In this document: positions 24,848 through 61,511 of the stretch, one piece after another
Layout of the letters: every line of letters begins with the position of its first letter
Position numbering within the stretch: the stretch's first letter is position 1
Assembly: GCA_023653025.1 (NCBI GenBank)
Contig: JAMNXS010000005.1
Span: 1 to 64,000 of the forward strand
Origin: Burkholderiaceae bacterium
Lineage (GTDB): Bacteria > Pseudomonadota > Gammaproteobacteria > Burkholderiales > Burkholderiaceae_D
Direction: 5' to 3'
Length of the DNA stretch: 64,000 nucleotides
Notes under the pieces: generated by a model
Databases searched by the model: none
What the model saw: the letters and a program-made list of their open reading frames with translations, nothing else
Told to the model about the DNA's origin: nothing
Translations under genes and position numbers: made by a program

Positions 24848-24862
24848 ATACTTAAGTATAAT
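24848..24862 (+). promoter_or_regulatory. T6SS-island motif, site 1 (palindrome merged with -10)
   Basis: The sequence is ATACTTAAGTATAAT. The first 12 bases are a perfect palindrome (ATACTTAAGTAT), and its end forms the -10 hexamer TATAAT (24857-24862). No -35 is found 17 bases upstream. The site precedes the 24890 operon by about 30 bases. Matching sites lie at 29736-29750 (minus) and 30451-30465 (plus). Confidence 0.65.
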
Positions 24863-24889
24863 TTGACGGTTCCTGCCGCCCATCCGCGC

Positions 24890-25726
24890 ATGCGCGGCCA
24901 CACGCATCCATCCATGGCCCATCCGATACCCGCCGACGACCGCGAGCATTTCGCCGCCGTACAGCAAGCGCTGGCGGAGGACGGCCTGCATGTCGCGATG
25001 GCCAGCGCCGATCCGGCGAAGCTGCATGCCTATGCCGGCGCGCTGGCGCGCGCCATCGCGGGCACGCGGGGCTGGCATGTCGAGGCCTACCGCGCCAGCC
25101 GCCTCGAGTCGGTCGTTGCCGACCTGATGCTGCAGCGCTTCGACGCGGCGCTGTCGCGCATTTCGGGATCGCCGTCCGGCCGGACCCGCGCCGCCGCGCA
25201 CAGCCCGGACCCGGCGGGATATGCGCTGTTCATCCCGGATGCGCAGGCCATGCCGCTACCGGAATTCAAGCAACTGCTGCGGGTGGCCGCCGGCACGCAC
25301 CGGCTGCGCCTGATTGCCCTGTTCGACGACAGGCGCCCGCTCGCCTGCGCCGCCCACCTGCGCGCGATGGGGACTCAGGCCGCGCACTGGTCGCTCGACG
25401 ATGAAGACGAGCCGGCACCGGCAAGCGGCCGCACCGGGCCGGCAGCCCGCGCGCACATTGCGCATATTGCGCACATTGCGCGCCCGCCGCACCCGGCACG
25501 ACCGCTGCGCCTGGGGGCGGCCAGCCTCGCTGCGGCGGCCGCCCTGTTGCTGGCCTTGCTGCCTGCGGCGCCGTGGCGTCCGGCAGATGGCCATACCGGC
25601 ACGACGGCGACGTCCTCGACCCTGACCCGCAGCGGGCTGGTGCAACTCGCCGGCGAACCGCCGGCCGATGTCCAAGGCAAATCGTCCGCCGCCGCCACGG
25701 CCGACGGCACAGAGGCTGAGCCATGA
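24890..25726 (+). CDS. Unknown membrane-anchored protein with AAA-like, P-loop-less domain
   Basis: A 278-residue protein from ATG 24890 (ATG 24914 and a TTG at 24863 are alternatives; no ribosome site decides). The block YALFIPDAQAMPLPEFKQLL followed by RLRLIALFDDRRP resembles the Walker B/sensor region of ExeA/MshM-type AAA ATPases, but no Walker A loop is seen. Residues ~210-235 form one transmembrane segment (LRLGAASLAAAAALLLALLP). The tandem HIAHIAHIA near residue 190 is odd. It is translationally coupled to the next gene (4-base overlap). I do not recognise an orthologous family; function unknown. Confidence 0.7.
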   Translation: MRGHTHPSMAHPIPADDREHFAAVQQALAEDGLHVAMASADPAKLHAYAGALARAIAGTRGWHVEAYRASRLESVVADLMLQRFDAALSRISGSPSGRTRAAAHSPDPAGYALFIPDAQAMPLPEFKQLLRVAAGTHRLRLIALFDDRRPLACAAHLRAMGTQAAHWSLDDEDEPAPASGRTGPAARAHIAHIAHIARPPHPARPLRLGAASLAAAAALLLALLPAAPWRPADGHTGTTATSSTLTRSGLVQLAGEPPADVQGKSSAAATADGTEAEP

Positions 25727-27126
25727 GCGTCGGCGTCGGGCATGCCCTCTTCTTCGTGCTCGCCAGCGTCGTCCTCGCGCTGCTGGCGCTGCCGGCCCTG
25801 CCACGTGAGGGCCGCCCCGGCGTTGCCGAGGGATTCGGCTGGCTCGCCATGGCAGCCGGGCTTTGCCACCCGCTGGCGGTCGTGGTCGCCGACGGCTATG
25901 GTCTCGCCGGTGACCTCACTCCCTTCCTCGCCGGCGACCTCGTCGCGGTCGCGGCGCTCGCGGGGGCCGCGGCCAACCGTGCCCCCGGCGGCCGGGGCTT
26001 CGCTCCGCTACTGCTGGTTGCCGCAAGCGCGCTGGCGGCCGGCACGCAGGCCTTGCCGGCCACCGGCCCCGGCATCAGCGGCGCGCTGCTGGCCTCGGTG
26101 CTGCTGTGTGTAGCGCTGATCGGCGCCGGCGCGGAGTGCGCGCGCCACGCGCGGCTGTTCCGCGAATCCACTCGAGCGCTTGCCGTGCTGGCGCTCGCCT
26201 GCGGCGCAGCGGCGCTGCTGTGGCTGGTGGCGGCGCTGCTGCTGGCTGGGGCCGCAGCACCGGCGGCATCCACTGTGCCGCTGCTCGAGGGCGCCGGGAT
26301 GCTGTGGCTGCTGCTGAAACTGGCGATGAGCGCCGCGCTGCTGCAACTGTTCGCCGCACGCCGCGGCGAGCGCGACGAGCGGCTGCAGCGCGCCCTGGTG
26401 TCGGCGGCGAACGAGGCCGTGCACGACTTGCGCGTGCTGGCCCAGGCCTTTTACCAGATGCCGGCGCGCGCGCTGGTCGCGGGCCGCGACGGACAACTGC
26501 TGTTCGCCACAGCCGAGGCCCGCCGCCAGCTGGGCTATCCCGACCTCTCGGGGCGCACGCTGGAAGATTTGTTCGTCGCGGTGCAGCCGGCCGGCAACCA
26601 GCGCGTGCGCGCGCTGCTCGAAAGACAAGACCGGCAGGCCCAGTTGCTGCAGATCCGAATGGGGACGGTAGAGTGCGGCGGCCAGTCCTGCCACCTGTTG
26701 CTGCTGGAGCCGCAGGCTTTCGATTTCTCGGGCGTGCGGGACCTGCTGGTCGACTCGCGCCACGACGATGCGCACGAGGCCACGGGCCTGCTCGACCATC
26801 ACTTCGCGCTCGTCGCGATGGCCGACGGCTGGTTCCGGCTGATGGAGCCGCTCGACCGCTACGCGGGCTCGGGCCTGTTCTGGGACAAGCTGCGCATACT
26901 CTCGGCCGGCGACAGCGAGATCAGCCATCTCGAATCGACCGCAGCCAGCGCGCCCGAGGCCGATGGCTGGCTCAGAATGCGCAACGGCGGCGGGCTGTCG
27001 GTCTCGCTGCGACGGCTGCTGACGCCGGAACAGAAGACCTTCTATCGCGTCCGGCTCGTGCTGGTTGACGAGGCGCGCCATGCGGTCGCCGGCGTGCCCT
27101 GCGCCGATGATGGCGGACGGGCATGA
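25723..27126 (+). CDS. Multi-TM protein with C-terminal PAS-like domain
   Basis: The 467-residue protein has about six transmembrane segments in the first ~215 residues (FFVLASVVLALLALPAL, PLLLVAASALAAG, LLASVLLCVALIGAG, LAVLALACGAAALLWLVAAL and others). A cytoplasmic part follows: MPARALVAGRDGQLLFATAE with LGYPDLSGRTLEDLF reads like a PAS sensory domain. No histidine-kinase, GGDEF or other output domain is seen. It likely senses something at or in the membrane and passes it to a partner. ATG 25723 and GTG/ATG coupling at 27123 put it in one operon with its neighbours. Confidence 0.7.
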   Translation: MSVGVGHALFFVLASVVLALLALPALPREGRPGVAEGFGWLAMAAGLCHPLAVVVADGYGLAGDLTPFLAGDLVAVAALAGAAANRAPGGRGFAPLLLVAASALAAGTQALPATGPGISGALLASVLLCVALIGAGAECARHARLFRESTRALAVLALACGAAALLWLVAALLLAGAAAPAASTVPLLEGAGMLWLLLKLAMSAALLQLFAARRGERDERLQRALVSAANEAVHDLRVLAQAFYQMPARALVAGRDGQLLFATAEARRQLGYPDLSGRTLEDLFVAVQPAGNQRVRALLERQDRQAQLLQIRMGTVECGGQSCHLLLLEPQAFDFSGVRDLLVDSRHDDAHEATGLLDHHFALVAMADGWFRLMEPLDRYAGSGLFWDKLRILSAGDSEISHLESTAASAPEADGWLRMRNGGGLSVSLRRLLTPEQKTFYRVRLVLVDEARHAVAGVPCADDGGRA

Positions 27127-27581
27127 TGAAGACCGGCGCCCTACCCTCCGTGCTCGGCCGGCAAATCGAGCGCACCCGACGCGAGCACAAGCTGTCGGTT
27201 TCGATACTCGCGATGCTCTCCGGCCTCGGCGACCAGCAGGTGCAGTCCCTCGAGAGCGGGAATGACGAGGGCTTTGTGAACGACGCGCACCGCGTCGATT
27301 GCGCGCGCCGGGTCGCCCAGGCACTCGGGCTGCCGCGTGACCATTTCCTGCAGCAGGAAGGCACCGACGCAATAGCCTCCAATAGCGCGCCGGAATCGGG
27401 CCTGGCGCGCGAACACTGGCAGCACCTGCCGCTGGCGTCGCTCGACGTGCTGTCGTCGCTGCCGGCCTGCGAATTGCCGCCGGCGGCAGAACAGCGCCGA
27501 GGCGGATCGCCGATGCTTGCCGCTCTCGCACTGTGCATCGTGCTGGCCGGATTGCTGCTGGCCATCGCCACCCTGCATTGA
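27123..27581 (+). CDS. Membrane-anchored XRE-type DNA-binding protein
   Basis: This 152-residue protein has an N-terminal XRE/cro-like helix-turn-helix (LGRQIERTRREHKLSVSILA MLSGLGDQQVQSLESG). It has a middle linker and a C-terminal single transmembrane helix (PMLAALALCIVLAGLLLAIA). The layout is RodZ-like but without a periplasmic domain. It could be a membrane-tethered transcription factor controlled by the PAS protein, whose gene it overlaps by four bases. It is a candidate for binding the 15-bp motif of this island. Function is inferred only from domains. Confidence 0.75.
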   Translation: MMKTGALPSVLGRQIERTRREHKLSVSILAMLSGLGDQQVQSLESGNDEGFVNDAHRVDCARRVAQALGLPRDHFLQQEGTDAIASNSAPESGLAREHWQHLPLASLDVLSSLPACELPPAAEQRRGGSPMLAALALCIVLAGLLLAIATLH

Positions 27582-27620
27582 AACGCCGGCACGCGCTCCG
27601 CTCCGTTACAATCGCCGCCG

Positions 27621-28277
27621 ATGACTACCGCTGCTTCCCTGCTGATCATCGACGATCACCCGATGATCCGCGTCGCGCTTGCCGATGCGCTGCGCGCGCG
27701 CTTTCCCGCACTCCGGCTCGAAACCTGCGCCGATGCCGAGACCGGCATCGCCCAGCTGAAGGCCGACTTGCGCCGCAAGAAAGACCATCCATGGTGGGTG
27801 TTGATGGATCTGGGCCTGCCCGGCCTTGGCGGCCTGGAGGCGATACGCGCGGTAACGGCACTCGGCCCGTCGGTCCGCGTAATCACGATCTCCGGCAACG
27901 ATGACGAGTTGCAAGTCGGGGCCGCGATCGGCGCCGGCGCGTCGGCCTTCATCAGCAAGGCGGCACCGCTCGAAAGCACGGTGACGATCATCGCCCAGGC
28001 CATAGCCGGCACCCTGCTGCGCGGCAGCTGGCTGTCCGCTCACGGACTGGCCGACAGTTCGCGGCTCAACCGCATCGCACTGACCGACCGGCAGGTGCAG
28101 GTACTGTCGATGATCTGCCACGGCATGAGTAACCGGGACATTGCCGATAGCCTCGGCATCACCGAGATCACGGCCAAGTCCCATGTCGGCAGCATCTTCC
28201 GCGAGTTGCATGTCGCCAGCCGCACGCAGGCCGTGCTGGTGGCGCAGCGGCTGGGGCTGTTCAAAAATACCAATTGA
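27621..28277 (+). CDS. NarL/FixJ-type response regulator
   Basis: The 218-residue regulator has a receiver domain with the acidic pair Asp11-Asp12 (LLIIDDHPMIR), phospho-acceptor Asp63 in VLMDLGLPG, and the conserved Lys in FISKAAP. A C-terminal LuxR/GerE helix-turn-helix follows: LTDRQVQVLSMICHGMSNRD and ITEITAKSHVGSIFRELHV. It faces the hybrid kinase gene tail-to-tail, 36 bases apart. It probably has its own promoter: TACAAT at 27607-27612 is close to the ATG. It is the best candidate for the island's transcription factor. Confidence 0.93.
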   Translation: MTTAASLLIIDDHPMIRVALADALRARFPALRLETCADAETGIAQLKADLRRKKDHPWWVLMDLGLPGLGGLEAIRAVTALGPSVRVITISGNDDELQVGAAIGAGASAFISKAAPLESTVTIIAQAIAGTLLRGSWLSAHGLADSSRLNRIALTDRQVQVLSMICHGMSNRDIADSLGITEITAKSHVGSIFRELHVASRTQAVLVAQRLGLFKNTN

Positions 28278-28313
28278 CGGCAACGGCGACGCCGGCCTCG
28301 CGCGCCGTTCGGG

Positions 28314-29645
28314 TCAGGATTGCAGGCTCGACAGGCTGCGGTTGATCGCCTCGCGCAGGCGATCCGCGCCGAACGGGCGAATCAGCACGCTGACGCGCGC
28401 ACCCCGGCCCGGATCCGGCTCGGCGAGCAGCGGCTCGTCGCTGCAAAGTATCAGCGGGAACTCGGCATTGAACTCCTCGTTGATGCGCATCACCGCCTGC
28501 ATCGCCGGTTCGGATGGCAGGCGCGCATCGACCAGCAGTACCGAGGGCACGCGGTCGATGCGCGCCAGTTCCCGGATCGCCTCCGCGGACGAGGCGGCGG
28601 CCAGCACTTCCACCCCCAGCCCGGGCGCGATCAGACCGAGCGCATGCGCAACCTCGGGATCGCCATCGAGGCAGACCAGCAGCGTGTTCGCAGGCGGCCT
28701 GACCACGACCTCGGTCAGGACGCCGCGCAGCAGGCGCTCCTCCTGCATAGCCCGGGCCTCGGCCTCGGACGGGTCATGGGTACACAGCGGAAGGTCGATC
28801 GCGAACACCGAGCCCAGCCCGACGTGGCTGCGCACCGACACGCTGGCGCCGATGCGGCCGGCGAGCCGCCGCGCGATCGACAGTCCGAGGCCGACGCCCT
28901 GCTCGGCCATGGCCGCGCTGTCGCCGCGCTTGAATTCCTCGAAGATTTTCCTGCGCATGCCGGCCGCGATCCCGGACCCGGTATCGACCACCGCGATCCG
29001 GCAGCGGCCGTCGCGCTCCGAGATCCTGACGCGGATCCCGCCGCGCCTCGTATAGCGCAGCGCATTGCTGATGAAATTGCGCAAGATGCGCTCGAGCAGC
29101 CGCGGGTCGGTGTCCGCGTAAGCCCGCCCCATGTCGTTGGCGCGAAGATGCAGCGCGAGGCCGAGATCATCGGCGACGCGCTGGTGCTGCCGCAGCAAGT
29201 GTTCGCAGAAGGACTGCAGGTGGACACGCTCGGCGTCCACCGCCAGCGCACCGCTGTCGAGACGGCTAATGTCGAGCACCGAATCGAAGACCTCGTTCAT
29301 GTAACCAATGCCCTGCTTCAGCCGGAGCAGGCTCTCCAGAGCGCGGGCGCGTTCCGCGGCCTCCATGCCGGCCGTAGCGAGGCTGCGCTCGATGCCATCG
29401 AGGTAAAGGTTGACGGCCTGCATCGGCTGCTTCAGGTCGTGGCTGAAAGCGGCAAGGAAACGCGAACGCTCGAGGTCGGCATCGCGCAACTCGGCACGCC
29501 GCCGTGCGAGTTCCTGTAGCAGGCTGTCGATGCGCACCGCCGCCTGCCGCACGCGGGAGCGCCGCCGCAGCGCCATGACCAACGCCGCAGTCAGCACCGG
29601 CACGCCCAGCGCTGCCAGCAGGGCGAGCGCCCCGAAATCAACCAT
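28314..29645 (-). CDS. Hybrid sensor histidine kinase
   Basis: The 443-residue protein has one N-terminal transmembrane segment (residues ~5-26), a short coiled-coil, then the HisKA dimerisation box FSHDLKQPMQAVNLYL with phospho-His69. The HATPase domain has N-box LRNFISNALRYT, DTGSGI and GVGLGLSI. A degenerate C-terminal receiver follows (VLLVDARLPS, probable Asp near 380). No sensor domain is present, so a partner may supply input. ATG 29645 was preferred over a TTG at 29681; GGAGGAG lies 11 bases upstream. A copy of the island motif lies ~90 bases before it. Confidence 0.92.
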   Translation of the reverse strand: MVDFGALALLAALGVPVLTAALVMALRRRSRVRQAAVRIDSLLQELARRRAELRDADLERSRFLAAFSHDLKQPMQAVNLYLDGIERSLATAGMEAAERARALESLLRLKQGIGYMNEVFDSVLDISRLDSGALAVDAERVHLQSFCEHLLRQHQRVADDLGLALHLRANDMGRAYADTDPRLLERILRNFISNALRYTRRGGIRVRISERDGRCRIAVVDTGSGIAAGMRRKIFEEFKRGDSAAMAEQGVGLGLSIARRLAGRIGASVSVRSHVGLGSVFAIDLPLCTHDPSEAEARAMQEERLLRGVLTEVVVRPPANTLLVCLDGDPEVAHALGLIAPGLGVEVLAAASSAEAIRELARIDRVPSVLLVDARLPSEPAMQAVMRINEEFNAEFPLILCSDEPLLAEPDPGRGARVSVLIRPFGADRLREAINRSLSSLQS

Positions 29646-29710
29646 GCCCAGCAATGCTCCTCCCCGGGCAGGCCTGCCCAAAAAACTACTGCCTCACATT
29701 GTTTCTTTGA

Positions 29711-29740
29711 TTGTTTCTTTGCGGATATATCGCGTATTAT
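29711..29740 (+). promoter_or_regulatory. Candidate plus-strand promoter of the 29786 gene
   Basis: TTGTTT (29711-29716) and TATTAT (29735-29740) are 18 bases apart and lie ~50 bases before the ATG at 29786. The -10 overlaps motif site 2, so a protein bound there could act on both divergent genes. Confidence 0.5.
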
Positions 29741-29750
29741 ACTTTAGTCT
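29736..29750 (-). promoter_or_regulatory. T6SS-island motif, site 2 (upstream of hybrid kinase)
   Basis: On the minus strand it reads AGACTAAAGTATAAT, with TATAAT as the -10 (29741-29736). It differs from the site 3 sequence ATACTAAAGTATGAT at two positions. It points at the kinase gene, about 90 bases away. Confidence 0.6.
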
Positions 29751-29785
29751 GAACAAGCGGCGTAGCAAAAGGAGCAACTCAATCC

Positions 29786-30415
29786 ATGCAGAAGCCACCG
29801 TTTTCGCAGGACGGGGAGTGGCAGGGCGACGAGGCCGGCCAGCCGGGATCGCGCCGGGAGCACTCGCCCGACCATCCGTTCGGCCGCGCCTTCAACGGGT
29901 CGGCCGGTGCGCCTGCGCGACGCAGCCCGACGCCGAGCAGCACCCGCCTCGAGCCGGATCTTGGCAGCGACGACGACGAAACGCCGGGACGACTGCCGCC
30001 GGGCTTCGGCGACCTCGCCCGGCGCGTCGCGGAAACCAACCTGCTGGTCGACCGTGCGATCTCGTCGATCTCGGCCGAGCACGGACAGCCGCACTCAGCC
30101 GAGACGCTGTCCGACCTTGGCGAGAACCTGAGCCAGCTGTTTTCCCAGCTCTATGAGGGCAGCGCCGACGGCGGGGCCAGCCCGTGGCACGCGATTACCG
30201 ACTCGCTCGGCGACCTGTCGGCAAAAATCGACCGGCGCGAACAGCTGCGCGCCGAACTGCAGATGAACCAGCACGCGATCGACAAGGCCAAGGCGCGCCT
30301 GATCGACCAGATACAGGAAGCCGCCAGGGTCGAGCAGGAGCGGCTTTCACTGACGCGCATGCGCAGCCGGCTCGCGGCGGTGATGGCCGACAAGCTGCTG
30401 AACAAGCTGCGCTGA
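29786..30415 (+). CDS. Unknown T6SS-island protein with C-terminal coiled coil
   Basis: The 209-residue protein has an N-terminal ~75 residues that are Pro/Gly/charged-rich and probably disordered. The middle is a helix-rich region (FGDLARRVAETNLLVDRAIS). The C-terminal part is strongly helical and charged (LRAELQMNQHAIDKAKARLI, QEAARVEQERLSLTRMRSRL), most likely a coiled coil. There is no signal peptide or TM. AGGAG lies 12 bases before the ATG. It sits 135 bases before tssB with its own promoter. I do not recognise a family; a cytoplasmic T6SS accessory or scaffold role is a guess from position. Confidence 0.75.
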   Translation: MQKPPFSQDGEWQGDEAGQPGSRREHSPDHPFGRAFNGSAGAPARRSPTPSSTRLEPDLGSDDDETPGRLPPGFGDLARRVAETNLLVDRAISSISAEHGQPHSAETLSDLGENLSQLFSQLYEGSADGGASPWHAITDSLGDLSAKIDRREQLRAELQMNQHAIDKAKARLIDQIQEAARVEQERLSLTRMRSRLAAVMADKLLNKLR

Positions 30416-30450
30416 AAAAATTGCCATCGATAAATTTTTTTCTTGCACTC

Positions 30451-30465
30451 ATACTAAAGTATGAT
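30451..30465 (+). promoter_or_regulatory. T6SS-island motif, site 3 (upstream of tssB)
   Basis: The sequence is ATACTAAAGTATGAT: near-palindrome ATACT-AA-AGTAT (30451-30462) with TATGAT (30460-30465) as -10, the same geometry as site 1. An alternative promoter, TTGCAC (30444-30449) with TAGTAT (30467-30472) at 17 bases, would place the palindrome in the spacer as an operator. The tssB ATG is 86 bases downstream of the -10. Confidence 0.65.
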
Positions 30466-30550
30466 TTAGTATTGTTGCGAAGAACCAAATTTGCGGGTCC
30501 GGCACCGGACCCATGGCAAACCGCGGGTTTCCTGGAAGGGGTAAGGATCT

Positions 30551-31120
30551 ATGGCTGAGAGCTTGCAGAAGTGGATGGGGCGCAATCGTCCGCCCCGCGT
30601 TCAGATCACCTATGACGTAGAGATCGGCGACGCGATCGAGAAGCGAGAGTTGCCGCTGGTCGTCGGGGTGATGGCCGACCTGATGGGCAAGCCGGCATCG
30701 GCGCCGCCGAAAATGAAGGACCGCCGCTTCGTCGAGATCGACCGCGACAACTTCGACGACATCCTCGCCAAGATCGGGCCCCGCCTCGACATGAGCGTGG
30801 CGGACACGATGAAGGGCGAAGGCAACCTGAAGGTGGAACTCGATTTCCGCAAGTTCGCCGACTTCCATCCGGAAGCCATCGTGCAGCAGGTGCCGCGTCT
30901 GCAGAAGCTGCTGCAGGCCCGCCTCGAACTGCGCGACCTGCTGGCCAAGCTCGATGGCAACGACGACCTCGACGGCCTGCTGGCCAACGTGGTCGGCAAC
31001 ACCGACGAGCTCAAGCAGTTGCGCGCAGCGACCGACGAGCCGGCGGCAGACAAGCAGGACGACAAGAAAGACGACAAGAAGGCCGGCAAGAAAGCCGACG
31101 ATGCACCGGCAGCCGAGTGA
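30551..31120 (+). CDS. tssB: TssB, T6SS contractile sheath small subunit
   Basis: TssB (VipA) pairs with TssC to form the contractile sheath in the cytoplasm. The 189-residue protein begins with the typical MAESLQKWMGRNRPPRVQIT and YDVEIGDAIEKRELPLVVGV. It has LPLVVGVMADL and RRFVEIDRDNFDDIL, and a C-terminal DELKQLRAATDEP. The tail is unusually Lys/Asp-rich (KQDDKKDDKKAGKKADD). It is the first core gene of the run, 36 bases before tssC. GGAAGGGG upstream gives a good ribosome site. Confidence 0.97.
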   Translation: MAESLQKWMGRNRPPRVQITYDVEIGDAIEKRELPLVVGVMADLMGKPASAPPKMKDRRFVEIDRDNFDDILAKIGPRLDMSVADTMKGEGNLKVELDFRKFADFHPEAIVQQVPRLQKLLQARLELRDLLAKLDGNDDLDGLLANVVGNTDELKQLRAATDEPAADKQDDKKDDKKAGKKADDAPAAE

Positions 31121-51715: not shown

Positions 51716-52282
51716 TCAGGCTATCCATTTCGACAAGGCAGTAAATGCGCCGAGCGCGACGACCACGATGGTGCCGAGCTTGATCGTCATCCGATGCTCG
51801 AGGATGATGAAGCGCTGGTCGATTTGGGCAAGACGCTGGTCGATGCCGTCGAGGCGCTTGTCGATATCGGCGAAACGCTTGTCAATGCCGTCCAGACGCT
51901 TGTCGATATCGGCGAAACGCTTGTCCATGCCGTCCAGACGCTTGTCGATGCCGTCGAGGCGCTTGTCGATATCGGCGAAACGCTTGTCCATGCCGTCCAG
52001 ACGCTTGTCGATGCCATCCAGGCGCTGATCGATGCCGCCCAAGCGCCTGTCGATATCGGTGAAACGCTTGTCGGTGGGGACGAAACGCTGTTCGAGGCTG
52101 GCAAACTTCGGATCAAGCCCGTGAAGGCCGCGCTGGACCGCTCCCTCTACGTCGTCCTTGGTGGCGAGGTTCACCAGCGAATCGCGCGTGACGTCGATGA
52201 TGGCCACCGACTGCTCTTCGGTGAGACCGGTGCCGCGAAGGCGCTTCATCATGTTGAGCGAGTCGAAGACGATGGCTGTCAT
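51716..52282 (-). CDS. DUF1640-like coiled-coil membrane protein with heptad repeats
   Basis: The 188-residue protein (ATG 52282; ATG 52312 possible) starts MTAIVFDSLNMMKRLRGTGL and TEEQSVAIIDVTRDSLVNLA, like DUF1640 proteins. It ends with one TM helix (MTIKLGTIVVVALGAFTALS). Between them fourteen 7-residue units (DKRLDGI, DKRFADI, DQRLAQI) make a long coiled coil encoded by 21-bp DNA repeats. Function is unknown. TATACT (52319-52324, minus strand) may be its -10. It lies between the tRNA-Leu and the prophage junction. Confidence 0.85.
   Translation of the reverse strand: MTAIVFDSLNMMKRLRGTGLTEEQSVAIIDVTRDSLVNLATKDDVEGAVQRGLHGLDPKFASLEQRFVPTDKRFTDIDRRLGGIDQRLDGIDKRLDGMDKRFADIDKRLDGIDKRLDGMDKRFADIDKRLDGIDKRFADIDKRLDGIDQRLAQIDQRFIILEHRMTIKLGTIVVVALGAFTALSKWIA
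51812..52105. repeat. Fourteen tandem 21-bp repeats inside the coiled-coil gene
   Basis: Units such as acgcttgtcgatatcggcga and acgcttgtccatgccgtcca recur every 21 bases from 51812 to 52105. Two unit types alternate (encoding DKRFADI and DKRLDGI/M). The inner units are near-identical and the flanks more diverged, the usual trace of recent expansion. Each unit is 7 codons, so copy-number change keeps the frame. Confidence 0.9.
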
Positions 52283-52434
52283 GGCAAGGTGATCCTGACG
52301 TTCAAGCTTCATGCGCGGAGTATAGACTCGGCACATGAGTTCTTGCAGCGTTGATATCAGCCTCGTGAACGCTGCACAACGGATTCGTTCGACACAAGTC
52401 TGTCGTATTCGAAAACCGAACCGCCATCGTACAA

Positions 52435-52464
52435 AAACAAAACGGCCTCCGAAGCGGAGGCCGT
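52435..52464 (-). terminator. Terminator of the original tRNA-Cys transcript
   Basis: The stem ACGGCCTCC (52442-52450) and GGAGGCCGT (52456-52464) has a 5-base loop. On the minus strand it is followed by a T-rich tract (complement of ACAAAAACAA). It lies just past the tRNA-Cys 3' end, in chromosomal DNA. Confidence 0.75.
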
Positions 52465-52472
52465 CAATAAAT

Positions 52473-52521
52473 TGGAGGCGGGGGTCGGAATCGAACCGGC
52501 GTAGACGGCTTTGCAGGCCAC
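52473..52521 (-). pseudogene. 3' fragment of tRNA-Cys(GCA): prophage attachment site (attL)
   Basis: On the minus strand the sequence from tRNA position 27 to the CCA is present: the anticodon stem-loop with GCA (CTGCAAA loop), variable region GTCTAC, T-arm GCCGGTTCGATTCCGAC, acceptor CCCCGCC and discriminator T, as in tRNA-Cys. The D-arm and 5' acceptor strand are missing: past 52521 the sequence is unrelated A/T-rich DNA. This is the expected left end of an element that integrated at a tRNA 3' end. The restored full tRNA would be at the far end, outside the window. The T-stem has one C-A mismatch. Confidence 0.85.
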
Positions 52522-52660
52522 CCGCGAATCGTTAAAAATCAATTCATTAGACCCTGTTTTGTTTCGCCATTTTGTTTCCCAGAGGGATCAAAACCCGCAT
52601 TCTGCCGTAAGAAAAAAGCCCGTGGCGAACAGAATTTCTGCCTAAAATCCATTCACCAAT

Positions 52661-52870
52661 CTATTCACCACTCCGCCGCTTCGCCCTCTGCATCGCATCC
52701 CAATCGTCGCGGCAGAACGTATCGCAGAAGCGCATCGGATCGCTTAGTTCTTCCCCGCAGAAGTAGCACTCGCCTGTGTACGGATGCGCGACAGCCCTGC
52801 GGATACGGCTGATGCCGTCCTCAATAGCCGCTGCAATCTTCTCGTCGGAGCGGTCTGCTTCGTCGGTCAT
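52661..52870 (-). CDS. Small phage zinc-finger protein
   Basis: The 69-residue protein contains CYFCGEELSDPMRFCDTFCRD: a C-x2-C-x9-C-x3-C zinc-ribbon-like pattern with charged flanks (MQRAKRRSGE tail). It resembles DksA/TraR-like phage zinc-finger proteins only in a general way. ATG 52870 overlaps the phosphoesterase stop by four bases. It is the last prophage gene before the tRNA junction. Role unknown, perhaps transcriptional. Confidence 0.75.
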   Translation of the reverse strand: MTDEADRSDEKIAAAIEDGISRIRRAVAHPYTGECYFCGEELSDPMRFCDTFCRDDWDAMQRAKRRSGE

Positions 52871-53829
52871 ACCTTGATGACCTCCCCTCGGAAGTACACC
52901 AGCCCCGCATCCTCGCTGACCACCTCAACCAGTTCAGGCGGCATCAGCTTGCCCTCGTAGAAGGTCAGCACCGCAAAGCCGCTCCGGTGGTTCGCAGGCG
53001 AGTCCTCGGCATAGGCAAACTGATCCCCTAACGGATCAGCCAGCGTCCCTGTATCGACCCCGTAGCGCGTTCGTTGCGAACTAAAGTCCGTCCACGGCGT
53101 GACTTTCAGGCTATGGAGATGCCCCGTTATGACCGACACCCCTGCCTTCAAAGCGTTGTTGTAGGTTGCATGAACCCCGTTGTGCCAGCGATGCTTAATC
53201 AGCGTATGGTCGTTGACCATGATGGAGGTCGAGAACTGCCAGCGCGGAAAGTGATGGGTCAAGTCAAACCCTGTGACCCCTTCGTATTCCGGCACAAGGT
53301 TGGCGATCCGCGCATTGAACCGGAGGTCATGATTCCCCCATGTCCAGTGCAACTTCGCGTTACCTGCTACTGCCTCAACCTCGGCCAGCCTGTCCCTGAC
53401 CGCTTCCAACTCTTGCTTGACCGTAGGACGGGCTTCAAAGCCATTGGCGGGGTGGCGGCTGACTCTTGCACCGTCGAAGGCATCGCCATTTATAACGACC
53501 ATCTGCGGCTTCATTTCGCCAATGATCCTTACAAATGCACGGTGCGCGGTGCTGATGAGATTCGGCCAGTAGTGACAATCTGAAGCCACCACAATCACAC
53601 CATCATCGACTTCGACAACTACCCGCTTACCATTTTGCGGCAGAGTCACATTGAAGGTCGGGCTGCGCTTGTGAGGCGAATTCAGCATCACCCCGTACCG
53701 CTCTTCGATGCGCCGTCTGCGCTGCTGGATGTTCCTTGCATCGACCTCAAGTATCTTTGCCATCTCCGTGGCACTTGGGTGCTTCTCCCACAGTGCCATG
53801 AATTCCTTGTCCGTACACCGCGCAGTCAT
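52867..53829 (-). CDS. Phage calcineurin-like metallophosphoesterase
   Basis: The 320-residue protein has all metallophosphoesterase metal motifs: D-x-H in ASDCHYW, NGDAFDG, WGNHDLR and the late ITGHLHSL (plus HRWHNG). The first ~50 residues look like a helix-turn-helix (SATEMAKILEVDARNIQQRR). Phages use such enzymes as nucleases or phosphatases; the substrate is unknown. The ATG at 53829 has a G-tract almost touching it (see the homopolymer finding); ATG 53799 is an alternative. Last-but-one gene of the prophage late run. Confidence 0.88.
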   Translation of the reverse strand: MTARCTDKEFMALWEKHPSATEMAKILEVDARNIQQRRRRIEERYGVMLNSPHKRSPTFNVTLPQNGKRVVVEVDDGVIVVASDCHYWPNLISTAHRAFVRIIGEMKPQMVVINGDAFDGARVSRHPANGFEARPTVKQELEAVRDRLAEVEAVAGNAKLHWTWGNHDLRFNARIANLVPEYEGVTGFDLTHHFPRWQFSTSIMVNDHTLIKHRWHNGVHATYNNALKAGVSVITGHLHSLKVTPWTDFSSQRTRYGVDTGTLADPLGDQFAYAEDSPANHRSGFAVLTFYEGKLMPPELVEVVSEDAGLVYFRGEVIKV

Positions 53830-53838
53830 CTCCCCCCC

Positions 53839-54045
53839 CTAGCTGTCACATTTGCGCTTAAATTCGCCGCACCATCCATCCGGCAGCGACATCGAGAACG
53901 AAAACCCCAACCCGTCCTCACCATCTGGGAACACCGTGGGCGGCAAGCGTCTGCACTCGCCCAACTCCTCCTTTTTGTCATGCACAAAAAAAGCGCACCT
54001 CGCGCATTTGGGCATCCAATCCTCGTCGGGCTTCTTCCTCGGCAT
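53839..54045 (-). CDS. Small phage Cys-rich protein
   Basis: The 68-residue protein has CARCAFFVHDKKEELGECRR and a later GWCGEFKRKC, four to five cysteines that could hold zinc or an Fe-S cluster. It starts directly after the Rz stop. Two bases separate its end region from the phosphoesterase ribosome site. Function unknown. Confidence 0.75.
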   Translation of the reverse strand: MPRKKPDEDWMPKCARCAFFVHDKKEELGECRRLPPTVFPDGEDGLGFSFSMSLPDGWCGEFKRKCDS

Positions 54046-54516
54046 TCATTCCTCGTTGTAGGCGCGGATGATCGATTGCAGAGCCTCCAGCCGCCTCATG
54101 CTGTCTCGGCACGCCTCGTAGTTGTCGATCACGGTTTCGGCAACGACTTGAGCGGCAACGGGGGCGACATCAGTTCTGGCGGCACTAGCAGGCGGCACTT
54201 CTGTGGCGGTGGCAGCGGCATCGTGGAGCAACCTGAAATCAGCACTAGCAGGGCAATCATTCGATACACGGGCAACCTCTCTCGTAATCGTTCGATAAAC
54301 AACCCGCTCCTGGTGGGCAGCTTGGTGGACGGTTCTTGCCACAGAATCGGCAGTCTGTTGCTGCTTCCTTGCGGACTCTGCTGCAGCTAGAACACTTGCC
54401 GCTTTCTCCGCATCCCACGCCCTCTGCACGGCTTCCCTGCCCATCGTGTAGCACTTCCATCCTGCCCCCGCTAAAACAATCGATATGACCGCCGTAATCG
54501 CCAGCCTCAAGTACAT
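54046..54516 (-). CDS. Rz: Rz-like inner-membrane spanin
   Basis: The 156-residue i-spanin has an N-terminal TM (LAITAVISIVLAGAGW) and a long periplasmic helical/charged part (AVQRAWDAEKAASVLAAAES). Spanins fuse inner and outer membrane in the last step of lysis. An Rz1-type lipoprotein gene is nested in another frame (54129-54269), which confirms the identity. It overlaps the small upstream gene by ten bases. Confidence 0.88.
   Translation of the reverse strand: MYLRLAITAVISIVLAGAGWKCYTMGREAVQRAWDAEKAASVLAAAESARKQQQTADSVARTVHQAAHQERVVYRTITREVARVSNDCPASADFRLLHDAAATATEVPPASAARTDVAPVAAQVVAETVIDNYEACRDSMRRLEALQSIIRAYNEE
54129..54269 (-). CDS. Rz1: Rz1-like outer-membrane spanin lipoprotein, nested in Rz
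   Basis: In the frame shifted from Rz, GTG 54269 (or ATG 54260) opens VYRMIALLVLISGCSTMPLP and continues PPQKCRLLVPPELMSPPLPL to KSLPKP, stop 54129-54131. The lipobox LISG-C gives a lipidated Cys14; the mature protein is ~33 residues and Pro-rich, exactly like Rz1. AGAGAGG lies 6 bases before the GTG. It is completely embedded in Rz, as in lambda. Confidence 0.85.
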   Translation of the reverse strand: MYRMIALLVLISGCSTMPLPPPQKCRLLVPPELMSPPLPLKSLPKP

Positions 54517-54722
54517 TTCGCCTTCTCCACTGCTTCCAGCCTCTCCCGAAGGTCATGCACGATCCCCGCGCAAATCTGGAGGTTCTGGTTCATCTGATAC
54601 CATTGGATTTCAATCCGCTGGACATCCTCACGGTCTAGGACTACCGAACCATCCTTCATGTGTTCGATTGCCAGCGTCGAGGCCGATAGCCCCAAGAACA
54701 AGCCCAAAACGAAGTTACGCAT
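54507..54722 (-). CDS. Small secreted or membrane phage protein
   Basis: The 71-residue protein has an N-terminal hydrophobic stretch (FVLGLFLGLSASTLA) like a signal anchor, then a charged helical part (RIEIQWYQMNQNLQICAGIV). It lies between endolysin (8-base overlap) and Rz (10-base overlap), in the lysis cassette. It may act in lysis control, but no family is recognised. Confidence 0.75.
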   Translation of the reverse strand: MRNFVLGLFLGLSASTLAIEHMKDGSVVLDREDVQRIEIQWYQMNQNLQICAGIVHDLRERLEAVEKAKCT

Positions 54723-55185
54723 CTGACCCTCCCATGCACAGTCGATATTCCTGCTGGCGACGGATCGTCAGCCCCCGCAACGGCTTGTTATTGAACTTGT
54801 CCCACTTCAGGATTTCGGTACACGCGCCTCTGTAATCCCGCGCCTTCAATTTCTTCACCAGCGTGGACTTGCAGGCAGCACCCGTCCCTACGTTGTACGC
54901 CCATGAAACGATGGCATCCCACTCATGCTGATGCAGGGGGATGTCGCCAATGCAGCGTTTGAGGTCTTTCTGGAAGTTCTCCGTATGCGCGGAGAGTTTG
55001 ATGAGAGCGCGAACCGGATCGGTTCTATCGCCTAGTTTGACGTTGTGAGTGTCCCCAAAGCCGATAGTCGGGACATCGCCAGGAACGGGAATGTAGGCTG
55101 TCTCGCGGTAGCCTTCGTGAACCGCAATGCCCACCAACGCTGCCGCAGACAGCGACAGGCTGGCAAGCATCAGCCGGTTATTCAT
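54715..55185 (-). CDS. Phage endolysin (GH24 lysozyme), signal-anchor type
   Basis: The 156-residue muramidase has an N-terminal hydrophobic segment (LASLSLSAAALVGIAV) that probably acts as a signal-anchor-release domain. The GH24 triad follows: catalytic Glu in AVHEGYRETAY, Asp in VPGDVPTIGFGDT, and Thr. The later DAIVSWAYNVGTGAACKSTL fits P21/RrrD-type lysozymes. ATG 55185 was chosen because it begins the signal-anchor. The frame runs on to 55266. It overlaps the holin by 8 bases. Confidence 0.92.
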   Translation of the reverse strand: MNNRLMLASLSLSAAALVGIAVHEGYRETAYIPVPGDVPTIGFGDTHNVKLGDRTDPVRALIKLSAHTENFQKDLKRCIGDIPLHQHEWDAIVSWAYNVGTGAACKSTLVKKLKARDYRGACTEILKWDKFNNKPLRGLTIRRQQEYRLCMGGSDA

Positions 55186-55366
55186 CGCCAGCCACACCCT
55201 TCTTCTTGGCGATTTGCAGGTGCTGGTGCTTGAACCAGATATTGACCAGCAGGCCGACAAGCGCAATGACTACGCCGGAAACCGCAGCGAACTCATTGGC
55301 CGTCAACCCGAAGAACACTGCCGATCCTGCGCCTGTGTATGTTGCCGCTGTCGCTGCCTTTTCCAT
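55178..55366 (-). CDS. Phage holin
   Basis: The 62-residue protein has two hydrophobic segments (residues ~10-28 and ~30-47: GVVIALVGLLVNIWF) and a basic tail (KHQHLQIAKKKG). This is the layout of class II holins, directly before the endolysin gene. Together they permeabilise the membrane for lysis. Confidence 0.85.
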   Translation of the reverse strand: MEKAATAATYTGAGSAVFFGLTANEFAAVSGVVIALVGLLVNIWFKHQHLQIAKKKGVAGDE

Positions 55367-55368
55367 CG

Positions 55369-56163
55369 CTATGCCTTGATGATAAAGTTAATGCCCATGT
55401 AGGGCGGCAGGTTGGCGTTTGTGCCAGATACGCCGGATGCGTCGATTGTGTGAGCGTGTGCGCTGCCAGTCGAATCAACGATGTATGTGTTATTCCCAGA
55501 TACCCCCATCCCCGGCTGAGTAAACGCTGTAACGTTGTTTCCGAAGTAATCAATGTCCGTATGCCACCCGTATACCGTTGAATGGTTATGTGCGCCGCCG
55601 TTTTGGACCGTATGAGCGTGGCTGACCACCACCGCATCCTTCGAACCACCTGTCGCTGCTACCGCCGCAATCGTGCCTGCGCCTATTGGCATCCGATCAG
55701 CGTAATTCGGCAGATTGAAAGTGGTTGCGCCGTCACCCGCGCCAAAAGTTGTCCCAAGCAGCGCAAACAAAGCGGCATAAGTTGAGCGGCTTACCGCACT
55801 ACCATTACACAGCAACCAGCCTAGCGGAGCCGTTGCGGTAGGCCACATCATCAGGCCACCTGTCGGCGCACCATTCGCTAGTACAAAGGCAGTGGTGGCG
55901 ATTTGTTGGGTGTTTGTGCCGGGAGCCGCAGTCGGGGCTGTCGGCACGCCGGTCAGGGTCGTTGTACCCGTGACCACTAGGTTGCCGCCCACCGTCAGAT
56001 CATCACCCGCTGCGCCCGTCTGGAACTCCTTCAGGTCGCTCATCAACTGGCGAATCGCGTTGTTGATGCCGGAAGGAGCACACCCTTCGGCAATATTGAT
56101 GCCGTTGATGTCGGTGTTATTCGCAGGGTTGGTGCTGAATTCGGAAATCTTTGTCTTTGCCAT
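55369..56163 (-). CDS. Phage tail-collar-domain fibre protein
   Basis: The 264-residue protein starts with a short attachment part (MAKTKISEFSTNPANNTDIN) and a Thr/Ala/Pro-rich linker. The tail-collar domain follows: GGLMMWPTATAPLGWLLCNG and LFALLGTTFGAGDGATTFNL with LPNYADRMPIGAG. His pairs (SHAHTVQNGGAHNHS) in the end part are typical of iron-binding fibre tips. It is a likely receptor-binding fibre. The next gene, the holin, is two bases downstream. Confidence 0.9.
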   Translation of the reverse strand: MAKTKISEFSTNPANNTDINGINIAEGCAPSGINNAIRQLMSDLKEFQTGAAGDDLTVGGNLVVTGTTTLTGVPTAPTAAPGTNTQQIATTAFVLANGAPTGGLMMWPTATAPLGWLLCNGSAVSRSTYAALFALLGTTFGAGDGATTFNLPNYADRMPIGAGTIAAVAATGGSKDAVVVSHAHTVQNGGAHNHSTVYGWHTDIDYFGNNVTAFTQPGMGVSGNNTYIVDSTGSAHAHTIDASGVSGTNANLPPYMGINFIIKA

Positions 56164-56165
56164 GA

Positions 56166-58106
56166 TTAGTTCCCAAGTAGACCGCCAACCGTGCCAAGTG
56201 CGCCAGAGGTGGGCGGCATCATTGACGGTCGCCGGTTCTGTGCGCGACGGCGCAGTTCATCAATGATTGCTTTCTGCTCTGCCGGATCGGACGAAAACAG
56301 ACGCTTTTGCAGTTCAGCCGACGATTCCTCGCTGATGCCCTTGGCGCGTGCCACAACCCGCTTTGTGAGGTTCAGCGCGGTACTGAGCGTGTTACCTCGC
56401 GCAACATCGGAGATAGAGTCAACAAACAAGTTTGCGTCATCGTTCATCGCTAGACGCTCGGCGGTTTTGGAGTTGCCCAAGACGTTCTTCATCGTGCGCG
56501 ACTGCTTGTCCAAAGCCTCGACGTACTTAACAAAGTCCTGATACGACTTCTCGTTATCAAAGGCGTACCGCAGTAGCGATTTTTGCTTTGCGCTCTTGAA
56601 TATTTGGCGGGTGAAGTCGCCGCCCTTGAAGTTGTCCAGACGCTGATTGATGTCAGCAATCATCCCCAAACGGAACGACTCGCGCTCGGCCTGCGTCATG
56701 TTCTTCAGTTTCGCCAGCAGTTCGGTTTCGCTCAGTTTCTGGTAGTTCGTGCCGTTTTCAAACGCCGATTGGATGCGTGCGGAGTCAGCAAAACGCTTGT
56801 TGGCTTTGGCGTAGTCAGGGTTCTGCTGCTTGATGAGGTTGTTGAAGTCTTCGCGTAGCTTGCTTATATCGCGGCCATAACTCGACATCTTGCCGAAACT
56901 GTCGATTTCTTTTTCCACCATCCGATCCAGACCAATCTTCAACTGGTGCAGGATTTCGGTGGAAATGAACTGCGCGTTTCTGATCTGCTCAAACGGCGGC
57001 AGTTTGCGACCCTGTGCATCTGCACGCTTGACCGCTTCCTGATACGCTTGCTGGATCGCCTCACGGTCAACAAACTGACGGAACGGAACCGCAGAAATGT
57101 CCTTGCTGTAGGCTTTGGGATACGCAGCATTTGCCGCCTTGCGCTGCGACTCCGCAAGGTCGTTCATGAACTGGAATTTGTCCACATTGGCAGGCAGTCC
57201 TGCTTTCTGCGTCAAGCCGCGCACCAGTTCGTTCGGCTGTTCTATGTACCGGCCTTCTAGAAAACCCTCTGTCGCGCCTTTTGCCTTGCTCGGTACGACA
57301 TATGCGCTGTAACCCAGATCAGACAGGCTCTTGCCTTGGTCGGCAAGGGTAGGATTCGGCACACCCAGACGGCGTAGTTCATTAAGGTTCCTGGCGATCT
57401 GGTCAGGGCTAAGACCGTCCTTCATCATCCGGTCTTCAATCAGGCGCATGGCAACATCAGACTGATCGCCCAGACCAAACGAATTGCCGATATTGCGCCC
57501 CGTCTTTCCAACAAAGCCAGCAAGCGGCGGAATCGCACCGCCAAGAATTACGCCAGCCACACCAGAGGTCGCAGCCGCCTTGCCAATGTCACCAATCCCT
57601 TGCGCTTCACCCGCGCCAGTAATGCCGCCAGCAATCCCGCCTGCACCCGCGCCGATGCCGACAGTTTTGAGCAAAGAGTTTGTCGCTGTCGCACCCTGCC
57701 CAAGCCCTTTTGCAAAAACACCTAGTGGCAACGCAATCCCACCGGCAATTTCCAACCCTGTTTTTGCAAGCGGGTACTCGTTACCAAAAGCTTCCTGCTG
57801 GCCTCGCAGTTGGTCGCGCAACGCGATGTATTCTTCGCCGCTGATTTGCCCGGTGCGAAGCATGGCCTCCAACTCATCGGCAAAGCCAAAAGTCAGACCG
57901 CTAGCGGTAGACCGGATTGACTCGAGCGCAGCGTTGTAGCTCCGCCGAGGCATGCCTTTAGGAATCGCTCCGCCGGTAGGCTTTGCTGGCGATTGGTCTG
58001 GATCGCGCTCTATTTTTCCTACGCCGACATAAGCCCTGCCCTGCTCATCTTGGCCTTTGATAGTTGGGTCGCTAACAATGGTGGCTTCTTCCCATGCATT
58101 CGCCAT
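56166..58106 (-). CDS. Large phage virion/DNA-ejection-type protein
   Basis: The 646-residue protein begins with a charged linker and a Gly/Ala-rich amphipathic stretch at ~115-190 (GATATNSLLKTVGIGAGAGG, IAGGITGAGEAQGIGDIGKA), such as is found in podovirus internal proteins that cross membranes. The rest is largely helical (AESQRKAANAAYPKAYSKDI). No enzyme motif is seen. It touches its upstream neighbour by one base. Its role as ejection protein is inferred from size, position and composition. Confidence 0.78.
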   Translation of the reverse strand: MANAWEEATIVSDPTIKGQDEQGRAYVGVGKIERDPDQSPAKPTGGAIPKGMPRRSYNAALESIRSTASGLTFGFADELEAMLRTGQISGEEYIALRDQLRGQQEAFGNEYPLAKTGLEIAGGIALPLGVFAKGLGQGATATNSLLKTVGIGAGAGGIAGGITGAGEAQGIGDIGKAAATSGVAGVILGGAIPPLAGFVGKTGRNIGNSFGLGDQSDVAMRLIEDRMMKDGLSPDQIARNLNELRRLGVPNPTLADQGKSLSDLGYSAYVVPSKAKGATEGFLEGRYIEQPNELVRGLTQKAGLPANVDKFQFMNDLAESQRKAANAAYPKAYSKDISAVPFRQFVDREAIQQAYQEAVKRADAQGRKLPPFEQIRNAQFISTEILHQLKIGLDRMVEKEIDSFGKMSSYGRDISKLREDFNNLIKQQNPDYAKANKRFADSARIQSAFENGTNYQKLSETELLAKLKNMTQAERESFRLGMIADINQRLDNFKGGDFTRQIFKSAKQKSLLRYAFDNEKSYQDFVKYVEALDKQSRTMKNVLGNSKTAERLAMNDDANLFVDSISDVARGNTLSTALNLTKRVVARAKGISEESSAELQKRLFSSDPAEQKAIIDELRRRAQNRRPSMMPPTSGALGTVGGLLGN

Positions 58107-59602
58107 TATTTTCTCCCCGGTTTGACGCGCAGATTTCCGTTCGGGTCGTAGAACTCCGCCCCTGGTGGAAGGCGATCGTATTCAGCATCCGATGTGATGT
58201 AAGGCGCAAACTCTGGAGCCGTCAGAGTCTGCTCTGGGTCATCTAAGTTGTTGTTCTTGCGCCGCCTGACGATATTGGTGCTGGAGTTTTTCGCTGCTCT
58301 AGCATTGAGATCGCGCAGCTTTGCAATGGCCGCGGCAGCGTCTTTCTGCGACTCAGCAGATTGCAGTTCCTTCGCCGCCCGCTCTGCATCACCTTCAGTT
58401 TGCGTACCTTTATTAAGGCGCAGTGATTCATTCACCAATCGTGTGCGGAATCGGTTGAAATCGTTTCGAGCTGCCGCATCATCTCCGGTTGCGCCAAGAA
58501 AGTTTTCAACAGGCGTGGTAAGCCGGTTGTAAAGACCAAACTTGATCCGTCCGCTTCCAATCTTTTTCAAGTAATCATTTGCTTCGTTTGCAAGGTCAAT
58601 CGCAGACTGGCCTTTTTCAAAGTCCTCGTCCTCTGCCTTGATGACAGACGCTGGCGGCGGCTTCCCGCTCCCCTTGTTGACCGGCTCATACGGGACAGCT
58701 TGCCCCGTAGTCGCGTCATAGGCGGGCAAACCTGCTTGCATCGGGGGGAATACCGCACGTCCGTTTTTGTCAAACACTGGTTCCTTGCCGTACATCGGCT
58801 TTGGCTCTGCCGGTGCTTTTGGCTCGGTTCCGGCGACCTGCGTGACCTCCCCGTTCGCGCCAAGCTGGAAACGGCGGTTCGTTGGCAGGCCTAGTTGCCT
58901 CTGCTCCTCCACTGACAGCAGACGAGCCTGGGGCTTTGGCGTGGTTCCAGAAACTAGGTCAACCGTGCCGTCTGTCTTGCGCTGGTACACCTGACCGCCA
59001 TCAATGGGCAGCCCCAACTGCACAGCTTGATCTCTGTTCAGCACGCTTGCTTGCGGCCTCATTGATGCCAAGGTTGAATCAACCACCTTGCCGGCATCAA
59101 GAATCATCAGATCGGATTGAGTCAGAGGCTCGCCACGCTCGGCTTTTTGAATGACTGCCATCCTTCGCTGGCGATCTTGCTCTTTGAAGTCCGATTCTTG
59201 GGCTGCAATGTCGGCGGCTTGCATTTCACGCGCCGCACGCTGCTGGAAGGCTTGCGCCTGTGCCTGACGAGTCGCGTTAATCATCGCGTTTTGGTACACG
59301 CCCTGCGAGGTTTGTAGGCCCGTACCCAGAGCGTTCAGGATGTTCTGCGCCGCACTCCTGCGCGGCCCCTGCGGACTCATCCCGTTGGCAATCGCGATCG
59401 CCGCACCCAGCAGACCGGACACATTCGCCTGTCGGCTGATAGCCCCCGCCTGCTGTTCACCCAGAAGCCCCGCGATTTGCGCCGGATTGCCACCGAAGAC
59501 GTTCGGCAGGTAGTCCGCTATGCCACGCGGCTGCATTGGTTGCTGCTGGCGCAGATACCGCGCTTCAGCTTCGTCCATCGGCATTCCGAAGATCGTATCC
59601 AT
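58106..59602 (-). CDS. Phage virion-associated protein, unknown
   Basis: The 498-residue protein is helix-rich with Gln/Ala-rich segments at the start (RQAQAQAFQQRAAREMQAAD). A repeated motif follows: QAVQLGLPIDGGQVYQRKTD and RQLGLPTNRRFQLGANGEV are two copies of one ~35-residue unit. It has a Pro/Lys middle and a charged end. It is probably a structural or ejection protein beside the 646-residue one. No enzymatic motif; family not recognised. Confidence 0.75.
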   Translation of the reverse strand: MDTIFGMPMDEAEARYLRQQQPMQPRGIADYLPNVFGGNPAQIAGLLGEQQAGAISRQANVSGLLGAAIAIANGMSPQGPRRSAAQNILNALGTGLQTSQGVYQNAMINATRQAQAQAFQQRAAREMQAADIAAQESDFKEQDRQRRMAVIQKAERGEPLTQSDLMILDAGKVVDSTLASMRPQASVLNRDQAVQLGLPIDGGQVYQRKTDGTVDLVSGTTPKPQARLLSVEEQRQLGLPTNRRFQLGANGEVTQVAGTEPKAPAEPKPMYGKEPVFDKNGRAVFPPMQAGLPAYDATTGQAVPYEPVNKGSGKPPPASVIKAEDEDFEKGQSAIDLANEANDYLKKIGSGRIKFGLYNRLTTPVENFLGATGDDAAARNDFNRFRTRLVNESLRLNKGTQTEGDAERAAKELQSAESQKDAAAAIAKLRDLNARAAKNSSTNIVRRRKNNNLDDPEQTLTAPEFAPYITSDAEYDRLPPGAEFYDPNGNLRVKPGRK

Positions 59603-59609
59603 CGCTCAC

Positions 59610-60805: not shown

Positions 60806-60807
60806 AT

Positions 60808-61206: not shown

Positions 61207-61511
61207 CAGCCCACCACCACATACGAGAATTTACGGTCTGATAATGCGTTGGACGGATGGGTTATAACCGCAGACCCCTTATTGCGAGCCGAAACGTACA
61301 TACTCCCCATAAATGCAGCAGCATTGACCGTTAGCGGAGTGAAAATAATCGCGGAACCATAGCCGATCCGCTCGTCCGTTAATGTCGTGATTGTCCCGTT
61401 TGATAGCGCGATTTCGCCGGTATTGTTCGTTTTCCCCGACATCGCGCCATTAACGACTTCAGCTACCTGACGGGCATCGCCACCAAACGGCGGGAGGGTT
61501 CGGTAGGTCAT
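61206..61511 (-). CDS. Small phage virion-operon protein
   Basis: The 101-residue protein begins MTYRTLPPFGGDARQVAEVV at ATG 61511 (an upstream run-on to 61562 is rejected) and has a beta-rich end (ITTLTDERIGYGSAIIFTPL). It looks like a small head-tail or decoration protein. The ATG overlaps the preceding gene stop by four bases. Family not recognised. Confidence 0.75.
   Translation of the reverse strand: MTYRTLPPFGGDARQVAEVVNGAMSGKTNNTGEIALSNGTITTLTDERIGYGSAIIFTPLTVNAAAFMGSMYVSARNKGSAVITHPSNALSDRKFSYVVVG

Follow-up and report, generated by a model that had tools for sequence, protein, structure and literature searches.

Introduction

Two-component control of the type VI secretion system (T6SS) has been described in Edwardsiella piscicida, where EsrA-EsrB activates it (PMC6136808). 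Among further response regulators that invite comparison, the cell-envelope stress regulators VraR and LiaR autoregulate their own operon (PMC6612188), dimers of Bordetella BvgA sit on inverted half-sites with centres 22 bp apart (PMC7250471), and the DosR operator, TTSGGGACTWWAGTCCCSAA, has the centre ACTWWAGT (PMC2275270). Here we analyse a T6SS island within a 64,000-nucleotide stretch of a Burkholderiaceae bacterium (assembly GCA_023653025.1, contig JAMNXS010000005.1, positions 1 to 64,000; 'the window'), in which three promoters share the 12-bp palindrome ATACTWWAGTAT. Since this palindrome is unique to the island in the genome and aquatic relatives retain it next to a single signalling protein, a NarL/FixJ-family response regulator ('the NarL regulator'), it very probably serves as a private switch by which that regulator controls both itself and the T6SS.

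Results

A palindrome confined to three promoters of the island

A sequence-only reading of the window had pointed to three related 15-mers, at 24848-24862 (plus), 29736-29750 (minus) and 30451-30465 (plus), hereafter sites 1 to 3. Coordinates and strands are correct; the three sequences agree at 12 of 15 positions, not at 11 as had been counted. In the genome-wide search proposed there, the degenerate 15-mer AKACTWAAGTATRAT matches the 2,893,135-base genome exactly three times, always at these sites, and a reversed control pattern has none; no matches unrelated to the T6SS turned up anywhere in the 2.89 Mb. The conserved unit is the 12-bp palindrome that forms the core of the 15-mer. Allowing up to one mismatch it again matches the genome three times, at the same sites, and at two mismatches the matches are scattered over the genome, except for one that overlaps site 3 (30461-30472). 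By our own arithmetic, two further matches would fall within the same 5.6 kb by chance with a probability of about (5618/2893135)^2 = 4e-6. Because the search patterns were derived from the three sites themselves, their presence there is by construction, and the informative results are the lack of any other match in the genome and the conservation described below. That three T6SS-island promoters share a palindrome is a real observation.

All three positions are conserved in related islands. The same island is present in nine genomes of the genus, where every position within contig reach has the palindrome, either intact or altered at a single place. Further loci were fetched by tssB, or by the recognition helix of the NarL regulator together with a second short NarL peptide; the motif itself was not used. 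The collection comprises 71 sites at 21 loci in 20 freshwater and marine betaproteobacterial genomes with the same layout: before the sensory operon, between the kinase gene and a T6SS-linked gene, and before tssB. Columns A1, C4, A8, G9, T10 and T12 are invariant over the 71 sites, the genomes span 32-66% G+C, and the flanks are weakly conserved. The marine genomes TMED41, TMED82, TMED100, MED-G174, AH-287-N17 and AH-736-P17 (G+C down to 32%) have the palindrome at the same positions, often doubled at a distance of 22-23 bp. Loci fetched by the recognition helix alone carry it as well. With one mismatch allowed, 0.00-0.37 copies per locus would be expected by chance. At site 2, nine relatives have ATACTTTAGTGT.

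Presence of the palindrome goes with that of the NarL regulator and its sensor kinase ('the cassette'). It occurs in none of 26 T6SS loci that lack this pair, and among 29 other tssB loci of the order it lies within the 1.5-kb flanks solely in the three that have the cassette. Same-genus genomes without the cassette have no promoter copy; one of them, G302, has a single copy, apparently inside a gene. A class-wide search beyond the order gave no match at E <= 1e-40.

Could the three sequences simply be AT-rich -10 regions that resemble one another in a genome rich in G+C, with no specific regulator behind them? Each does contain or touch a -10-like hexamer, TATRAT. However, chance resemblance of this kind explains neither the palindromic symmetry nor the genome-wide uniqueness, neither the invariance over 20 genomes of such different base composition with their drifting flanks nor the absence from T6SS loci without the cassette; the conservation and co-occurrence data contradict it, and we leave it next to no probability. 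An unlinked transcription factor encoded elsewhere that uses the palindrome is also highly improbable, if slightly less so: the motif accompanies the cassette from genome to genome and from one kind of cargo to another, and promoters of same-genus genomes without the cassette do not have it.

The palindrome follows the NarL regulator

Two proteins encoded beside the sites had been named as candidate binders, the NarL regulator and a membrane-bound XRE protein. Judged from the sequences, the palindrome follows the former and not the latter, since the recognition helix of the NarL regulator is invariant, the helix-turn-helix (HTH) of the XRE protein varies or is lost, and NarL/kinase pairs without an XRE homologue keep the motif. 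The recognition helix reads [ST]EITAK[SA]H throughout the T6SS-island orthologues, including those with as little as 48% overall identity; in two more distant NarL regulators of the same genus (39-41% identity; genomes G308 and G314) it reads AEITAKAH. XRE proteins of the genus share 46-51% identity, and an initial scan of genome contigs with the XRE protein gave no match.

The XRE protein has some claims to be the binder: its gene lies in the same operon, its N-terminus is HTH-like, and XRE proteins often bind palindromes. Against this, in G147 the gene at its position has apparently shrunk to a small membrane protein without an HTH, and in G245 the protein, HTH included, is barely recognisable, yet the operators are perfect in both (three of them in G147). 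Nor do the G308 and G314 loci, which retain the motif, encode an XRE homologue. We therefore reject the XRE protein as binder and consider this alternative very improbable.

The motif also scales with similarity to the regulator profile: loci that score 239 bits or more have it, those at 186-190 bits have a variant form, and none of nine loci at or below 156 bits has it. The variants, of the class ATACNNNNGTAT, precede the kinase gene in G249, between it and a tssA-tssB-tssC operon, and in G097, 9 nt ahead of the kinase ATG; they read ATACGGAAGTAT and ATACGAAAGTAT, respectively, as compared with ATACTAAAGTAT at site 3. Because the same palindrome class has 30 copies in G249 and 8 in G097, and is not confined to regulator loci, these variants are suggestive only; the further copies, some of them beside phage-like genes, were not used as evidence. 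Separately, ATACTTAAGTAT occurs three times in G249 (L176-L178), twice near phage-like genes and each time a short way upstream of an uncharacterised open reading frame.

The NarL regulator has the expected parts: a receiver (Response_reg, 1.5e-15) in which D12, D63, S91 and K113, including the phospho-acceptor Asp and the conserved Lys, are invariant, and a C-terminal HTH (GerE, 1.5e-16) that aligns with VraR and LiaR. The kinase had been described as a hybrid, a label that the sequences do not support: the acid pocket and Lys of its receiver are lost in most island kinases, and the domain is missing in G147. In the window (28314-28700, minus strand) the Lys is replaced by Arg and the acid pocket is altered; G308 and G314 have an intact receiver. 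Since the island receivers are degenerate or, as in G147, absent, the kinase probably phosphorylates the NarL regulator directly.

Operators and putative core promoter elements

The 15-mers had been described as near-palindromes ending in TATRAT, placed before the sensory operon, the kinase gene and tssB, none with a good -35. Part of this stands. The layout applies to sites 1 and 2, where the trailing RAT is conserved within TATAAT or TATACT. At site 3 the corresponding TATGAT becomes TATTGT, TATGGT or TATAAG in relatives; because it is not conserved, it is not the -10 of that site. Likewise, no -35 is recognisable at freshwater sites 1 and 2, and site 3 does have one (TTGCAC-18-TAGTAT). The positions are right, except that site 2 faces the T6SS-linked gene 29786 as well, so that the kinase gene is probably not its sole target.

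At site 1, there is little conservation in the same-genus islands other than in the palindrome and at the beginning of its -10. The ATG follows 10 nt past the palindrome and 7 nt past TATAAT or TATACT in 10 freshwater loci, and 6 nt past the palindrome, after TAGTAT, in G245; with the ATG so near, the site-1 transcripts of the relatives may be leaderless.

Site 2 has -10-like hexamers on both strands and stands 35 bp upstream of gene 29786. In G245 the divergent start codons are about 28 bp apart and a single palindrome fills the intergenic region. The plus-strand promoter of the marine loci has the elements TTGACA-16-TATACT; of its two operators, the first borders on the -35 and the second lies on the -10.

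At site 3 the operator lies between the -35 and the -10 in all 18 tssB promoters compared. The footprint CTTG-N5-ATACTAAAGTAT-N2/3-TTAGTATTG is invariant in the same-genus islands, including TTAGTATTG at the -10 region, and the two-mismatch match noted above is a half-operator, ATGATTTAGTAT (30461-30472). Read by eye, the -10-like hexamer past the palindrome is TAGTAT at 17-18 bp within the genus and TAATAA, TAAACT or TAAAAA elsewhere. We rejected a sigma-54 promoter for the tss genes: TGGCAC-N5-TTGC (-24/-12) has only two-mismatch matches, inside coding sequence.

Probable repression and its main rival

Unique in the genome and conserved in related islands, the sites agree with the dedicated regulon that had been proposed, a single protein governing the secretion operon along with its own signalling genes; we regard a private regulon of the NarL regulator as highly probable. 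The earlier preference for repression over activation also fits operators that overlap the -10 or fill the -35/-10 spacer, and, given such a regulon, repression is quite likely its main mode. In the mechanism we propose, a dimer of the NarL regulator would bind the palindrome, on top of the -10 at site 1, of both opposed -10 elements at site 2, and within the spacer of the tssB promoter at site 3. So placed, it would exclude RNA polymerase and jointly repress its own sensory operon, the kinase gene with the divergent gene 29786, and the tss operon; the island kinase may alter binding through phosphorylation. A dimer in such positions would get in the way of RNA polymerase, which makes repression combined with autoregulation the best reading, and we consider NarL-regulator operators that mainly repress and autoregulate reasonably likely to be the explanation as a whole.

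Several points weigh against this. Site 1 of the window stands 54 nt from the likely start ATG 24914, unlike in the relatives. That no -35 can be recognised at the freshwater sites 1 and 2 could also point to promoters that need an activator, and many NarL-family regulators do activate, some of them, such as BvgA at fim3, being thought to work from near the core promoter. The regulon is not always island-only, since G275 has an extra pair of sites before a Cds6_C gene. The main rival is activation, in which the same regulator, once phosphorylated, uses the same operators to aid RNA polymerase at promoters with a poor -35: it suits the freshwater sites, it is the mode of EsrA-EsrB, the known two-component control of a T6SS (PMC6136808), and the 22-23 bp between doubled marine operators match the 22-bp dimer spacing of BvgA (PMC7250471). 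It does not suit operators that cover the -10 or fill the spacer, nor the marine site-2 promoter, so close to consensus that an activator should be unnecessary. We consider activation unlikely, though well ahead of the other alternatives, and retain repression with autoregulation.

The G275 pair (L109 8670-8703) consists of two palindromes 22 bp apart, outside the T6SS island; the gene downstream, a possible extra regulon member, encodes a membrane protein with a Cds6_C NTF2-like domain.

The cassette beside other cargo

The regulator-motif pair is not strictly tied to the T6SS. G308 and G314 have NarL, kinase and motif with no T6SS in view. In G308 (L137 1449-11133) the NarL regulator (39%) and the kinase accompany a gene for a 2322-aa haemagglutinin-like protein, whose start lies 66 bp downstream of the palindrome. 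In G314 (L112 and L113, two short contigs) palindromes stand at two intergenic regions, between a ParA-like gene and the NarL gene (41%), and before the kinase operon, which is followed by an HMW1C-type glycosyltransferase gene; this locus also encodes a protein of 1177 aa that matches flagellin weakly. Given such different cargo (T6SS, haemagglutinin-like protein, ParA/HMW1C/flagellin-like locus), it is tempting, if doubtful on balance, to see a portable two-component cassette whose fixed 12-bp operator has been joined to varied surface and secretion genes and at the same time serves as the -10 of divergent promoters, often leaderless ones; a single palindrome would then both make and repress two opposite transcripts.

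Features of the island

The features discussed are collected in Table 1. The first sensory-operon gene probably starts at ATG 24914, by alignment with relatives, and neither gene of that operon has a Pfam match. In the marine islands the first site-1 gene is ParA/MinD-like (QKGGVGKS; L127 5957-6850 and relatives) and has no freshwater counterpart; by layout, the freshwater site-1 gene resembles the marine gene next after it. In G304 (L082, 6152-8307) about 2 kb of extra DNA lies between the XRE and NarL genes as compared with other islands. The G+C content of the window drops over 52001-64000, from about 0.67 to 0.57, as against 0.63-0.68 in most of the genome's contigs that were sampled and near 0.55 in same-genus relatives.

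Table 1. Operators, putative promoter elements and genes of the island (window coordinates)
Feature	Position	Strand	Remarks
Site 1 operator, ATACTTAAGTAT	24848..24859	+	before sensory operon; unique in genome, conserved in 19 loci
Putative -10 of site 1, TATAAT	24857..24862	+	overlaps operator; TATAAT/TATACT in all freshwater relatives
Two sensory-operon genes under site 1 (24863-25726 and 25723-27126)	24863..27126	+	gene order conserved
Membrane-anchored XRE-like protein	27123..27581	+	HTH-like N-terminus
NarL/FixJ-family response regulator, proposed binder	27621..28277	+	Response_reg and GerE domains
Sensor kinase with degenerate C-terminal receiver	28314..29681	-	HisKA and HATPase_c
Putative -10 towards kinase (site 2), TATAAT	29736..29741	-	kept in all same-genus islands
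Putative -10 towards gene 29786 (site 2), TATACT	29738..29743	+	conserved; TTGACA 16 bp ahead in marine loci
Site 2 operator, AGACTAAAGTAT (ATACTTTAGTCT on plus strand)	29739..29750	-	between kinase and gene 29786; 1 mismatch
T6SS-linked gene, second target of site 2	29786..30415	+	precedes tssB in every island of this type
Putative -35 of tssB promoter, TTGCAC	30443..30448	+	TTG 7-9 bp ahead of upstream palindrome in 18/18 loci
Site 3 operator, ATACTAAAGTAT	30451..30462	+	-35/-10 spacer of tssB; exact; invariant in all same-genus islands
Putative -10 of tssB, TAGTAT	30467..30472	+	18-bp spacer from TTGCAC; part of half-operator
tssB (VipA), first gene past site 3	30551..31120	+	T6SS_VipA 6e-54

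Discussion

The island offers a concrete, testable regulator-operator pair for the T6SS of freshwater and marine betaproteobacteria, hosts known here almost wholly from metagenome-assembled genomes. The specificity of the operator suffices to predict the regulon genome by genome and to separate the two candidate regulators, and apparently one control cassette has been set beside surface systems that are unrelated to each other. For a NarL-family regulator it is unusual that the operator should lie within the core promoter and that, in some relatives, divergent starts should be so closely spaced. We searched the literature for T6SS control of this kind in freshwater Oxalobacteraceae, and nothing close came up.

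By sequence, the closest solved proteins to the NarL regulator are VraR and NarL. The closest solved DNA-binding domains are those of VraR and LiaR (4wuh and its relatives, which the structure table calls response regulator, we take to be LiaR), and EsrB (7vim) is also among the related HTHs. VraR and LiaR share with the island regulator the autoregulation proposed here; they differ in that they belong to Firmicutes, that VraR upregulates its own operon, and that kinase, cargo and operator position are not those of the island. DosR (DevR) of Mycobacterium tuberculosis is likewise a NarL-family regulator, and its operator has a core, ACTWWAGT, identical to that of the island. However, the GGG/CCC arms of DosR sites are longer, and the DosR regulon comprises about 50 genes, whereas the regulon here is the island; as the arms of the island palindrome are AT...AT, not the full TTSGGG...CCCSAA, the site is not a DosR operator and merely has a similar core.

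EsrA-EsrB shares two-component control of a T6SS by a regulator with a related HTH. EsrB, however, activates widely, acting on about 990 further genes and on a type III secretion system, whereas the genome analysed here has three operators, all within the island, and this private operator is probably repressive. BvgA resembles the island regulator in the dimer spacing seen in the doubled marine operators; its sites are described as upstream and activating, unlike the single island operators in the spacer or on the -10. The island differs from these known systems in that its regulon is limited, in this genome, to the island itself, that the operators lie within the core promoter, and that the same cassette also occurs next to other cargo.

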